NCBI GenBank assembly: GCA_024707405.1
Contig: JANPZU010000001.1
Location: forward strand, 434,001 to 498,000
DNA from: Luteimonas sp.
GTDB taxonomy: Bacteria; Pseudomonadota; Gammaproteobacteria; Xanthomonadales; Xanthomonadaceae
Length of the DNA stretch: 64,000 nt
Direction: 5' to 3'
Made by a program: the position numbers and the translations under genes. The notes beneath the pieces were generated by a model, which was given only the letters and a program-made list of their open reading frames with translations, was not told where the DNA came from and ran no database searches. Below are positions 6,275 to 9,983 of the stretch, piece by piece; the first letter of the stretch is position 1; the number at the start of each line of letters is the position of its first letter.

Positions 6275-8986
6275 TCAGGAGCCGCCCGGATCCTCCCTGG
6301 CGCGGATGGCATCGGCCAAGTCGGCCAGCGGTTCGTCCAGCGTATCCGGATCGGCGGCCAGCAACGGCGCGAGGTAGCGCCCATGCCACAGCGCGGCTTC
6401 ATCGTCGCGACCGGCGTTCCGGTAGGCGCCGACCAGTTCCCAGACCGACCGCAGCGTGTCGCGATGCCGCTCGCCGAGCACCCGCTGGCGCAGTTGCACC
6501 GCTTCCCGGTGCGCGGCAAGCCCTTCCGCGATGCGTCCGTCCTTCATCAGCGCATCCGCGCGTATCGACAGCACCGCCTGCCGCAGCGGATGCCGCTCGC
6601 CCAGCGCCGCCACTGCCGGCTGCACGTCGTGCAGCAGCTTCAGTGCTTCGTCGTGGCGCCCCGCCCAGCGCAACGTGCTGGCATGGTTGACGACGATGGA
6701 CAGCGTATCCGGATGCCCTTCTCCCAGTCTCCGGCTGCGCACTTCGATCACCTGCCGCTCCAGCGGCAACGCGCCGGGGTAATCCTCCAGCCGCGCATGC
6801 GTAGTGGCGAGGTTGAGCCGGGTGCGCACGGTATCGGGATGCTCGCGTCCGAGTACGCGTTCACGCCCTTCCAGCACCGAACGCAGCAACGGCAGCGCTT
6901 CTTCCGCCCGGCCGGAGTCGGCGTACATCGAGCCCAGCGTGGCCCGCGCGGCCAGGCTGCGCGGGTGTTCGTGGCCATAACGGGCCACCGTGATCCGCGC
7001 CAGTTGTTCCTGCACGTCCACGGCCTCGGACTTGCGCCCCGAGATCATGCGCAGCACCGCGAGGTTGCGCTGCGCGTCCAGGGTGGCGTCGTGCTGCGGG
7101 CCAAGCAGGCCCAGACGCGTCTCCACCACTTTTTCCAGATTGGCCGCGGCCTCGTCGAAATCGCCCGCCTGCCGCTGCGACGCCGCCAGCGCGCTGCGCG
7201 CGGCAGCCACCGCCAGGTCGTTTTCGCCGTACTGTCCCAGCAATCCGTCCAGCAGGGTCTGGCGCATGGCGCGGGCGGCACGGAGATCGCCGCGCGCGGA
7301 CACGATCTCGGCCTGCGCAAGCGCCAGGCCGATCCGGGTCGCGTCGTTCTCCGGCAACCTTTCGACCTGCGGCAGGCTGCGTTGGAGCACGGCCTCGGCG
7401 GCGTCGTATTCAGCCGAGGCCACCAGCGCGCCGACCTGCGCCCGGCGTGCGCGCAGGGTCTCCGGCGCGTCTTCGCCGAGCGTCGCGCCGCGGTAGTCGG
7501 CCACCTTGGCGAACGCCTGCGCAGCCTTCGCCTCCAGCCCCAGCACCGACTGCACCCGCGCCACCGACTCGCGCAGTTCCGCGGCCAGTTGCGGATCGTC
7601 GGCGAAATCCCGCTCCAATGCTGCCTCCGCGCCCGACAGCAGCCCGTAGTCGACCAGCCCGCGGGCGATGTCGGTCGTGTCGGCGCGGGCCAGCAGGGCG
7701 CTGAAGTCATCGCGCCGATCCGGCACGGCGGCGGCGACCTGGCGCTCCAGTTCCTCGCCCATGCGCGAACCCAACACCTGCGTATCCAGCGATTCGAGCA
7801 TCGACTGCTGGAAATCCACGACCTTCTTCAGTTCTTCGCTGCGCTGCTCGGCCACCCGGCGCTGCTCGCGCGCCTGCATCAACCCGTGCAGCGACAGCGC
7901 CAGCCCACCCACCAGCGCGACGACCGCGATCGTTGCCGCCGCGAGGCCCGCGCGGTGGCGACGCGCGAATTTCCGCCAGGCATAGGCGCGCGACGGCGGC
8001 ACCGCCAGCACCGTCCTGCCATCGAGGAAGCGCCGCAGGTCGTCGGCCAGCGCGGCGGCCGACGGATAGCGGTCGCCGCGATCGTGCCGCATCGCCTTCG
8101 CCACTACCCAGTCCAGCTCACTGCGCAGCACGCGCTGCATTCCGGGCAGGCTCTGGCCCTGACCATGCGCCACGCGGTCGGCCTCGCCCGGCGGCAACGT
8201 CGCCAGTTGCTCGGAAGGCAGGCGCAGGGTGCGGCTGTCGTCGGTGACGGTTTCGCCCGCGGCATTCGGGCGGCGCCCGGTCAACAGTTCACACAGCACC
8301 ACGCCCAGCGAGTACACATCGCTGCGGGTGTCCACCAGCGACTGGTCTCCCGCCGCCTGTTCCGGACTCATGTAATCGGGCGTCCCCGCGACCTCGCGCG
8401 CCTCCGACAGCGACGATGCGGTGGCGATGCCGAAGTCGATGATCTTCGGGCGCGCGCGGCCATCCACTTCGTCCACCAGCAGGTTGCCCGGCTTGAGGTC
8501 GCGATGGATCACGCCCTTCTGGTGCGCGTGCTGCACGCCTTCGCAGACCTCCACGAACAGCGCGATACGGCGCGCCAGCGGCAACGCGCGCTCGACGCAG
8601 TACTGCGTGACCGGGCTGCCGTCGATGAACTCCATCGCGAAGAACGGATGGCCATCCGGCGTGGTGTCGGCATCGTAGATCTGCGCGATGGCGGGATGGC
8701 GCATCTGCGCCAGTACCTGGCGCTCGACCTCGAAATATGCTTTGTGACGCGCGTCGAGTTTCTGCGCGCGCAACAACTTCAACGCCACGGTACGGCGCAC
8801 GGGCTCCAGTTGTTCCGCCCGGTAGACCTCGCCCATGCCGCCACGGCCCAGCAACGCCTCGACGCGGTAGCGACCGAGCCGCGTGCCGGGCGGCAAACTG
8901 TCTGCGCCGCCCGCAACGATGCCTGGCACGCGCGTCGCCAGCAGCTGCGTGCGATCCGGATCGTGTTCGTCGTTCCCCGTCGTCAT
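6275..8986 (-). CDS. Membrane Ser/Thr protein kinase with C-terminal TPR-like region
   Basis: A 903-residue Hanks-type kinase. The kinase domain spans about residues 38-325, with glycine loop LLGRGGMGEVY, Lys70 (VALK), catalytic HRDLKPGN at 161-168, DFG at 184-186 and a GTPDYMSPE activation segment, so it looks active. One membrane helix follows (about 347-369). The remainder (about 370-900) is a helical repeat region resembling tetratricopeptide repeats, with several LG..HPDT..R type units, presumably outside the membrane. The ATG start has an AGGGGAC site six bases upstream; an ATG 33 bases earlier lacks one. The N-terminal tail has a DRTQLLAT segment, a possible autophosphorylation and FHA-docking site. 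It is divergent from an FHA-GGDEF gene about 100 bases away. Confidence 0.9.
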   Translation of the reverse strand: MTTGNDEHDPDRTQLLATRVPGIVAGGADSLPPGTRLGRYRVEALLGRGGMGEVYRAEQLEPVRRTVALKLLRAQKLDARHKAYFEVERQVLAQMRHPAIAQIYDADTTPDGHPFFAMEFIDGSPVTQYCVERALPLARRIALFVEVCEGVQHAHQKGVIHRDLKPGNLLVDEVDGRARPKIIDFGIATASSLSEAREVAGTPDYMSPEQAAGDQSLVDTRSDVYSLGVVLCELLTGRRPNAAGETVTDDSRTLRLPSEQLATLPPGEADRVAHGQGQSLPGMQRVLRSELDWVVAKAMRHDRGDRYPSAAALADDLRRFLDGRTVLAVPPSRAYAWRKFARRHRAGLAAATIAVVALVGGLALSLHGLMQAREQRRVAEQRSEELKKVVDFQQSMLESLDTQVLGSRMGEELERQVAAAVPDRRDDFSALLARADTTDIARGLVDYGLLSGAEAALERDFADDPQLAAELRESVARVQSVLGLEAKAAQAFAKVADYRGATLGEDAPETLRARRAQVGALVASAEYDAAEAVLQRSLPQVERLPENDATRIGLALAQAEIVSARGDLRAARAMRQTLLDGLLGQYGENDLAVAAARSALAASQRQAGDFDEAAANLEKVVETRLGLLGPQHDATLDAQRNLAVLRMISGRKSEAVDVQEQLARITVARYGHEHPRSLAARATLGSMYADSGRAEEALPLLRSVLEGRERVLGREHPDTVRTRLNLATTHARLEDYPGALPLERQVIEVRSRRLGEGHPDTLSIVVNHASTLRWAGRHDEALKLLHDVQPAVAALGERHPLRQAVLSIRADALMKDGRIAEGLAAHREAVQLRQRVLGERHRDTLRSVWELVGAYRNAGRDDEAALWHGRYLAPLLAADPDTLDEPLADLADAIRAREDPGGS

Positions 8987-9086
8987 GGTCGTCCCCTGCG
9001 TCGGCCACGAGCCTGCCATGGTAGCGGAATCGCCTCGGTCGCCACCGGCTGCCGTTACACTCGACGTTCGCCCCGCGCCTGCCACC

Positions 9087-9983
9087 ATGTCCAACCCCCA
9101 CGATCCTGCCGAAACCACGCAACGCACCGTGCTGAGCGGCGGGCCGCTCCGGCCCAGCCCGCGTTCCGCGTGCGTGGTGGTGATCCACGGCGAAGGGCTT
9201 GGCCGCCGCGCCGACGTGGAGGACGAACCGGTACTGGTGGGACGCTCGCAGGAAGCCGACCTGGCGATCCCGCACAAGAGTGTGTCGCGCGAACACTGCC
9301 GGATCTGGCGCGACGGCGACGACTACCGCATCCGCGACCTCGGCGCGACCAACCGCACCCGCGTGAACGACGACGCCATCGATGAATCCGTGCTCGCCGA
9401 CGGCGACCATATCGTGGTCGGCGAGACCATCCTCAAGTTCATCAGCCAGACCAGCGTCGAAGCGCGCTACCACGAGGAGATCTACCAGCTCGCCACGCAC
9501 GACGTGCTCAGCGACCTGTACAACCGCCGGCACTTCGTGGAAATGGCGGAAAAGGAGATCGCTCGCGCACTCAGGCACGGGCGTCCGCTCGCGCTGTGCA
9601 TCGTCGATGTCGACCTGTTCAAGCCGGTCAACGATCGTTACGGCCACATCTCCGGCGACGACGTGCTGCGCCAGATCGCTTCCATCGTGAAACAGCACGT
9701 GCGCAGCGACGACATCGCCGCGCGCATCGGTGGCGAGGAATTCGCGGTACTGTTGCCGGAAAGCGACGCCACCGCCACCCTCGCCTTCGCCGAGCGCCTG
9801 CGTGCAGCAGTCGCCGGCACCACGTTCGCGCCAGGCGGTGAGCCCCAACGAATCACCATCAGCATCGGCGCTGCCGCACTCGTGCATCCCGGCGGATCGC
9901 GCCAGTCGTTGATGGCCGCCGCCGACGCCGCGCTCTACCGTGCCAAGGACGAAGGTCGCAACCGGGTCTGCATGGCCCCCTGA
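9087..9983 (+). CDS. FHA-domain diguanylate cyclase (FHA-GGDEF)
   Basis: A 298-residue cytoplasmic protein. An FHA phosphothreonine-binding domain (about 32-120) shows VGRSQEADL, KSVSREHC and LGATNRTRVND. A GGDEF domain (about 138-298) carries the catalytic GGEEF at 215-219 and an RSDD at 206-209, five residues upstream as in a product-inhibition I-site, so active and feedback-inhibited c-di-GMP synthesis is likely. The tail before the FHA domain contains E9-T10-T11, resembling the phosphorylated ETT motif of GarA/OdhI, and T14 in QRTVLSG. Its neighbour is a Ser/Thr kinase, so phospho-control of the cyclase is inferred. The start is the ATG just before this tail; no strong ribosome site is seen. 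Confidence 0.92.
   Translation: MSNPHDPAETTQRTVLSGGPLRPSPRSACVVVIHGEGLGRRADVEDEPVLVGRSQEADLAIPHKSVSREHCRIWRDGDDYRIRDLGATNRTRVNDDAIDESVLADGDHIVVGETILKFISQTSVEARYHEEIYQLATHDVLSDLYNRRHFVEMAEKEIARALRHGRPLALCIVDVDLFKPVNDRYGHISGDDVLRQIASIVKQHVRSDDIAARIGGEEFAVLLPESDATATLAFAERLRAAVAGTTFAPGGEPQRITISIGAAALVHPGGSRQSLMAAADAALYRAKDEGRNRVCMAP

Follow-up and report, generated by a model that had tools for sequence, protein, structure and literature searches.

FHA-GGDEF diguanylate cyclases can be switched by their own N-terminal tails, as described for DgcB (Bd0742) of Bdellovibrio bacteriovorus (PDB 6hbz, 6hc0, and 6hc1). In the report on this enzyme (PMC6733907), T14 of the tail sits in the cleft of the FHA domain, a phosphopeptide complex is shown, and locking tail and FHA domain together makes the cyclase strongly active, so that tail-FHA contact activates; the responsible kinase is stated there as not identified. 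Here we analyze a stretch of 64,000 nucleotides (the window) from Luteimonas sp. of the Xanthomonadaceae (GCA_024707405.1, contig JANPZU010000001.1, positions 434,001-498,000 of the forward strand), in which a gene for a DgcB-like cyclase lies divergent from a gene for a membrane Ser/Thr kinase. We give a probability of roughly 55% to the reading that the kinase marks the cyclase tail, the FHA domain reads the tail, and the output of cyclic dimeric guanosine monophosphate (c-di-GMP) changes; by analogy, kinase and cyclase probably form an on-switch of the DgcB kind. An earlier note on this DNA had called such a circuit new. Phospho-tail gating of an FHA-GGDEF protein was, however, published for DgcB (PMC6733907), and a mechanism of this kind is known; the window adds a linked kinase to it.

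By sequence, the closest full-length solved relative of the window cyclase was DgcB (6hbz; expectation value (E) 1.9e-41), and DgcB was also the closest fold to its AlphaFold model (Foldseek E 8.7e-28). Both proteins have an N-terminal tail with a conserved Thr, an FHA domain, and a GGDEF domain with RxxD and GGEEF motifs. At 31% identity, they differ in their tails (TTQRTVLSGGP in the window, LEKTSIVAS in DgcB as quoted in PMC6733907), and DgcB has no assigned kinase, whereas the window cyclase has a linked one. A kinase-tail-FHA-GGDEF fusion, BE21_29150 of Sorangium cellulosum, is known here by its description in the same paper (PMC6733907); its logic is alike, but it is one fused protein rather than two divergent genes. 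A fusion of kinase, TPR, and GGDEF parts in Clostridium thermocellum was reported in an older survey (PMC1262709).

In GarA and OdhI of Actinobacteria, which work with PknB and PknG, the phosphorylated N-terminal tail binds the FHA domain in cis. The tail-FHA part of the window cyclase matched GarA best: residues 1-123 alone found 2kfu, whose entry names "Rv1827 pThr 22", at E 1e-12. Unlike the window protein, GarA and OdhI carry no cyclase, and the Glu-Thr-Thr (ETT) letters of the window cyclase are neither conserved among its orthologues nor aligned with the GarA site. In the SiaABCD system of Pseudomonas aeruginosa, threonine phosphorylation reportedly controls a diguanylate cyclase (PMC7647112; also the title of 7e6g); that cyclase presumably has no FHA domain, and SiaD is bound by SiaC, an activator that is a protein of its own, unlike the tail-FHA arrangement described here. 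No paper on the window kinase-cyclase pair was found in a part of the open-licence literature on FHA-GGDEF proteins, DgcB, and Ser/Thr-kinase control of cyclases.

The Kinase and Cyclase of the Window

The two divergent open reading frames given in the earlier note are present in the window, with the following features.

6275..8986, minus strand: membrane Ser/Thr kinase, 903 amino acids (open reading frame, Pfam Pkinase and TPR, catalytic motifs)
8930..8962, minus strand: kinase N-terminal tail motif DPDRTQLLATR, residues 9-19, candidate FHA docking site (tail alignment)
8948-8950, minus strand: codon of kinase T13, inside DPDRTQLLATR
8249..8869, minus strand: protein kinase domain, residues 40-246 (Pfam)
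7871..7954, minus strand: hydrophobic stretch, probable single membrane helix, residues ~345-372 (hydropathy scan)
6389..7357, minus strand: TPR region, residues ~544-866 (TPR_12 and TPR_10; extent from the NF040586 match)
8987..9086, no strand: 100 bp separating the divergent start codons of kinase and cyclase
9087..9983, plus strand: FHA-GGDEF diguanylate cyclase, 298 amino acids (Pfam; relative of DgcB 6hbz)
9114..9146, plus strand: TTQRTVLSGGP in the tail of the cyclase (residues 10-20), putative target of the kinase and ligand of the FHA domain
9117-9119 and 9126-9128, plus strand: codons of cyclase T11 and T14
9168..9449, plus strand: FHA domain, residues 28-121 by DgcB alignment (Pfam core 49-112)
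9492..9965, plus strand: GGDEF domain (Pfam, residues 136-293)
9702-9713 and 9729-9743, plus strand: RSDD I-site and GGEEF motif within the GGDEF domain

Neither a sigma-70-like promoter nor a terminator was found in a scan of positions 8900-9200.

The kinase has all the motifs expected of an active Hanks-type Ser/Thr kinase, namely the glycine loop (GRGGMGEV at residue 47), the VALK lysine (VALKLL at 67), HRD (HRDLKPGN at 161), and DFG (at 184), as well as TPDYMSPE at 202. Together with the Pfam TPR matches and the one hydrophobic stretch, a probable helix, these motifs agree with the earlier description of a catalytically equipped kinase with one membrane helix and a TPR part. None of its 17 NCBIfam matches reached the cut-off of the model concerned. 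The description of the cyclase likewise held: an FHA domain is joined to a GGDEF domain with GGEEF at residues 215-219 and an RxxD I-site (RSDD) at 206-209, and among the NCBIfam matches listed (25 of 28), only the general GGDEF domain model reached its cut-off.

The FHA domain likely reads phosphothreonine. Five residues of its cleft (R53, S67, R68, T88, and N89) are invariant in an alignment of 72 homologues, and H70 is kept in 70 of them. I-site residues R206 and D209 are kept in 61 and 59 of the 72. An AlphaFold model based on these homologues has a mean predicted local distance difference test score (pLDDT) of 89, with good domains. The source genome holds two FHA proteins in total, and phosphothreonine readers would thus be few.

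A Conserved Threonine Element in the Cyclase Tail

Orthologues of the cyclase were drawn from 35 related loci, 52 genomes of the genus, and 395 genomes of the family; 114 loci and the window gave 108 distinct cyclase rows. Tail columns were counted in the 82 rows with at least 56% identity, the 26 more distant rows being excluded. The conserved element is TTQRT-x-x-S-x-GP, with T10 kept in 75, T11 in 77, Q12 in 73, R13 in 70, T14 in 80, S17 in 78, G19 in 79, and P20 in all 82 rows. Since residues 3-9 and 18 are variable and the Thr codons vary synonymously, the conservation of this element, as judged by alignment, exceeds chance.

The earlier note had centered on E9-T10-T11, read as the same motif in the same position as in GarA and OdhI. 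These letters are indeed present, and the two threonines are well kept; E9, however, is retained in 10 of the 82 orthologues and lost in 72, and cyclase residues from 6 onward face GarA chain residues from 35 onward, so that ETT is not aligned with T22 of GarA. Homology with the GarA/OdhI site was therefore rejected. Lack of ETT conservation, which the earlier note had itself named as counting against its circuit, is thus observed in part. A related explanation is an off-switch of the GarA/OdhI type, in which phosphorylation of ETT would lead the tail to block its FHA domain, so that FHA-dependent output is turned off. The presence of ETT in the window, the retention of T10 and T11, and the GarA-first match of the tail-FHA part are all in its favor, but the loss of E9, the misalignment with T22, the at least equal retention of T14, and the activating effect of tail binding in the nearest full-length relative, DgcB, make it very unlikely.

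Linkage of Kinase and Cyclase across Genomes

Linkage was counted in 80 of the 82 loci, those with at least 600 bp of upstream sequence. In 67 of these 80 loci, the cyclase has a divergent kinase no more than 320 bp away, although the kinase of one locus (L119) belongs to a different type. Among the more distant cyclases, 6 of 24 loci have a divergent kinase. Among the 52 genomes of the genus (cyclase threshold 1e-60 or better), 16 have both genes, one has just the kinase, matched at 1e-120 (G018, 40% identity), and none has the cyclase only. In the family sample of 395 genomes (cyclase 1e-50, kinase 1e-110 or better, with the two best kinase candidates scored in most genomes), the cyclase occurs in 90 genomes from 17 of 54 genera, the kinase in 72, and both in 70. 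In wider samples, the cyclase was found in 108 of 398 genomes and 32 of 98 genera of the order at 1e-45, and in 11 of 369 genomes of the class at 1e-42, where 4 of the 11 match the GGDEF part alone.

Fisher tests of co-occurrence gave very small p values, but these tests ignore kinship and the joint loss of neighbors. More telling is the persistence of the pair where it is separated: both genes are kept 18-20 kb apart in G010, G015, and G044, and on different contigs in G026. The displaced kinases of four genus genomes have differing tails, with a Thr in each. When mapped on a tree of 91 cyclases, presence or absence of the kinase switches 11 times. In loci L104 and L112, three upstream neighbors like those of the window, which we take to be pyrD-, murB-, and permease-like, reach straight to the cyclase with no kinase between.

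A possible loosening of the cyclase tail after kinase loss was also considered. Of 72 rows that have the kinase, 70 keep Thr at both T11 and T14, vs 11 of 14 rows that lack it (Fisher p 0.029), and the core tail motif is present in 69 of 72 vs 10 of 14 (p 0.012), in motif classes drawn up after the tails had been seen and with L119 scored as kinase-less. Five loci were omitted: L026, L115, L031, and L033, in which the flank is short or truncated or the tail is missing, and L032, whose tail reads TTQRRT and whose flank yielded no kinase. The kinship-corrected test rests on 3 usable pairs with a median p of 1 and lacks power, and the idea was rejected on that account. Inspection by eye of kinase and cyclase tails revealed no clean pattern of covariation.

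Some loci depart from the usual arrangement. Upstream of the cyclase, L084 (G175) has two tandem kinases of this kinase family in divergent orientation, and the DxxT tail is missing from the one closer to the cyclase. In L124 (G173), Ile takes the place of T14 in the cyclase, and the neighboring kinase also has an unusual tail; the two tails may have changed jointly. Tandem FHA-GGDEF genes, which share ~47% and ~68% identity with the window cyclase, are found at L145 and L146 (G026 and G010), with the differing tails EDTQLRTI and QITERTRLS.

The Kinase Tail as a Candidate Docking Site

The kinase itself begins with a threonine-bearing tail, and T13 in DRTQLLAT had been proposed in the earlier note as a docking site for the FHA domain. 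In an alignment of 66 kinases, taken from loci with a cyclase of 56% identity or more, where L119 (another kinase), L124, and L125 align poorly, T13 is Thr in all 66 tails, the +1 residue is Glu or Gln in 62, and the +3 residue is Leu, Val, or Ile in all 66, within variable surroundings. T13 thus fits the ligand rule for FHA domains, in which an aliphatic +3 residue is stressed (PMC6733907). As a docking site it is better supported than ETT; the proposal is weakened by similar stretches in two of the four other kinases of the source genome whose N-terminus is readable, among 11 loci compared.

Evidence against the Kinase-Tail Switch and Alternative Explanations

Several observations weigh against a switch worked by the neighboring kinase. 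Some of these concern the tails and the cleft. The +3 residue of T14 is Ser (78 of 82 rows) and that of T11 is Thr (T14 itself), whereas DgcB and the usual ligands have an aliphatic residue there; this DgcB-type feature is absent from the window cyclase. The phosphate-contact position S95 of DgcB is Ala in the window cyclase (Ala in 56 and Ser in 16 of 72 homologues), and the predicted model leaves the tail unresolved, with pLDDT under 50 for residues 1-11. Outside the family, tails read TTRRT, TTQRRT, or TTQRL, and more distant copies are unlike these. Given such tails elsewhere in the order, neither T11 nor T14 can be called the sole site. The T13-like stretches in other kinases are DARTALLD in L166 and EGATEPV in L169, so that the motif may be a general feature of the kinase class; L167 and L168 have Ser in place of Thr, and all four readable kinases start with a longer N-terminal region than the window kinase.

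These features also bear on a simpler arrangement, in which the FHA domain would merely dock the cyclase on phosphorylated T13 of the kinase, c-di-GMP would be made nearby, and the cyclase tail would be no switch. By the +3 rule, T13 is the better FHA ligand, and the cyclase tail lacks an aliphatic +3 residue. Such a tether leaves the conservation of TTQRT-x-x-S-x-GP unexplained and sits poorly with DgcB, where tail-FHA contact activates (PMC6733907); we regard it as quite improbable.

Other points concern the kinase gene. Of the 90 cyclase-bearing family genomes, 20 have no clear kinase orthologue; when these were searched singly, their best kinase matches ranged from 1e-57 to 1e-110. In 4 of the 20, another kinase is near the cyclase, adjoining it in G065 and G346 and lying a few kb off in G076 and G118. 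In at least two genomes the reading frame of the kinase appears broken, the match falling in two frames in G050 and containing a stop in G049. Moreover, 13 kinase matches in the source genome pass the cut-off, and another kinase may therefore act on the cyclase.

The cyclase could accordingly be FHA-gated as in DgcB and yet be served by another kinase or by several, the neighbor being a linked but separate gene. The 20 genomes and the 13 kinase matches speak for this, as do the five FHA residues kept in 72 of 72 homologues, kinase-less rows included, and the G065 cyclase, whose divergent neighbor is a different Ser/Thr kinase, beyond which lies a PP2C phosphatase gene (L187:3329-6485). Against it stand the divergent kinase kept in 67 of 80 loci and the persistence of both genes where they are separated, and we consider it unlikely. 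The two genes thus mostly stay together, but the pairing is not strict: linkage in 67 of 80 loci and joint presence in 70 of 395 genomes are set against the 20 of 90 cyclase genomes without a clear kinase orthologue.

Proposed Mechanism

The kinase-tail-FHA-cyclase circuit put forward in the earlier note draws support from adjacency, co-occurrence, conserved Thr residues in both tails, and the likeness to DgcB; the genomes lacking a clear kinase orthologue count against it. In the switch that we favor, the stimulated kinase would autophosphorylate its own T13 to create a pT-x-x-L site, on which the FHA domain of the cyclase would dock. This docking step is less sure than the core reading of kinase, tail, and FHA domain. 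It would have a precedent, in that PknB reportedly recruits GarA by docking, as the title of a cited study puts it. The kinase would then phosphorylate TTQRT in the cyclase tail, on T11, T14, or both, and the phosphorylated tail would fill the FHA cleft of its own or the partner subunit, rearranging the dimer. As in DgcB, synthesis of c-di-GMP would be raised, and feedback through the I-site would cap the output. A PP2C phosphatase may reset the switch: one PP2C gene was found in the source genome, and G065 has one close to its other kinase, both of which would be in keeping with reversible switching. We infer the phosphorylation, its site, and the sign of the switch from the sequences and by analogy with DgcB.

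A more elaborate form of this mechanism, which we put forward tentatively and regard as doubtful, is a relay of two tails on one FHA cleft. Phosphorylated T13 would recruit the cyclase, the kinase would mark TTQRT, and the phosphorylated cyclase tail would displace that of the kinase; the cyclase would thereby leave the kinase and become active in a single step. The T13-like stretches in two of the four other kinases make this relay less likely.

A Secretin/MshEN Cluster between the Separated Genes

In G010, G015, and G044, the kinase and cyclase bracket a cluster encoding a secretin, an MshEN-domain ATPase, a T2SSF protein, and pilin-like proteins, as identified by Pfam in G010 and by tblastn of the same proteins in G015 and G044 (loci L184 in G010, L185 in G044, and L186 in G015). 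MshEN is a c-di-GMP receptor domain (PMC5013675). Two key Gln residues appear to be replaced in the MshEN domains of the cluster, by Asn in motif I and by Leu, Leu, and Met in motif II; c-di-GMP binding is doubtful for this reason. The cluster had no match in the window. The source genome has three MshEN proteins, which are 36-37% identical to the cluster ATPase.

Significance

FHA-gated switching of a cyclase is known from one structure set, that of DgcB, for which PMC6733907 states that the kinase was not identified. In many genomes, a candidate kinase is here linked to an FHA-GGDEF cyclase, and there are testable residues in each partner; which kinase, which Thr, and which sign are thus direct questions for the bench in environmental bacteria. 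If the two-tail relay were true, it would constitute a kinase-to-c-di-GMP module of the order and provide the DgcB type with its missing kinase. If the kinase marks the tail as we propose, Hanks-type kinases would be joined to c-di-GMP via a defined route.

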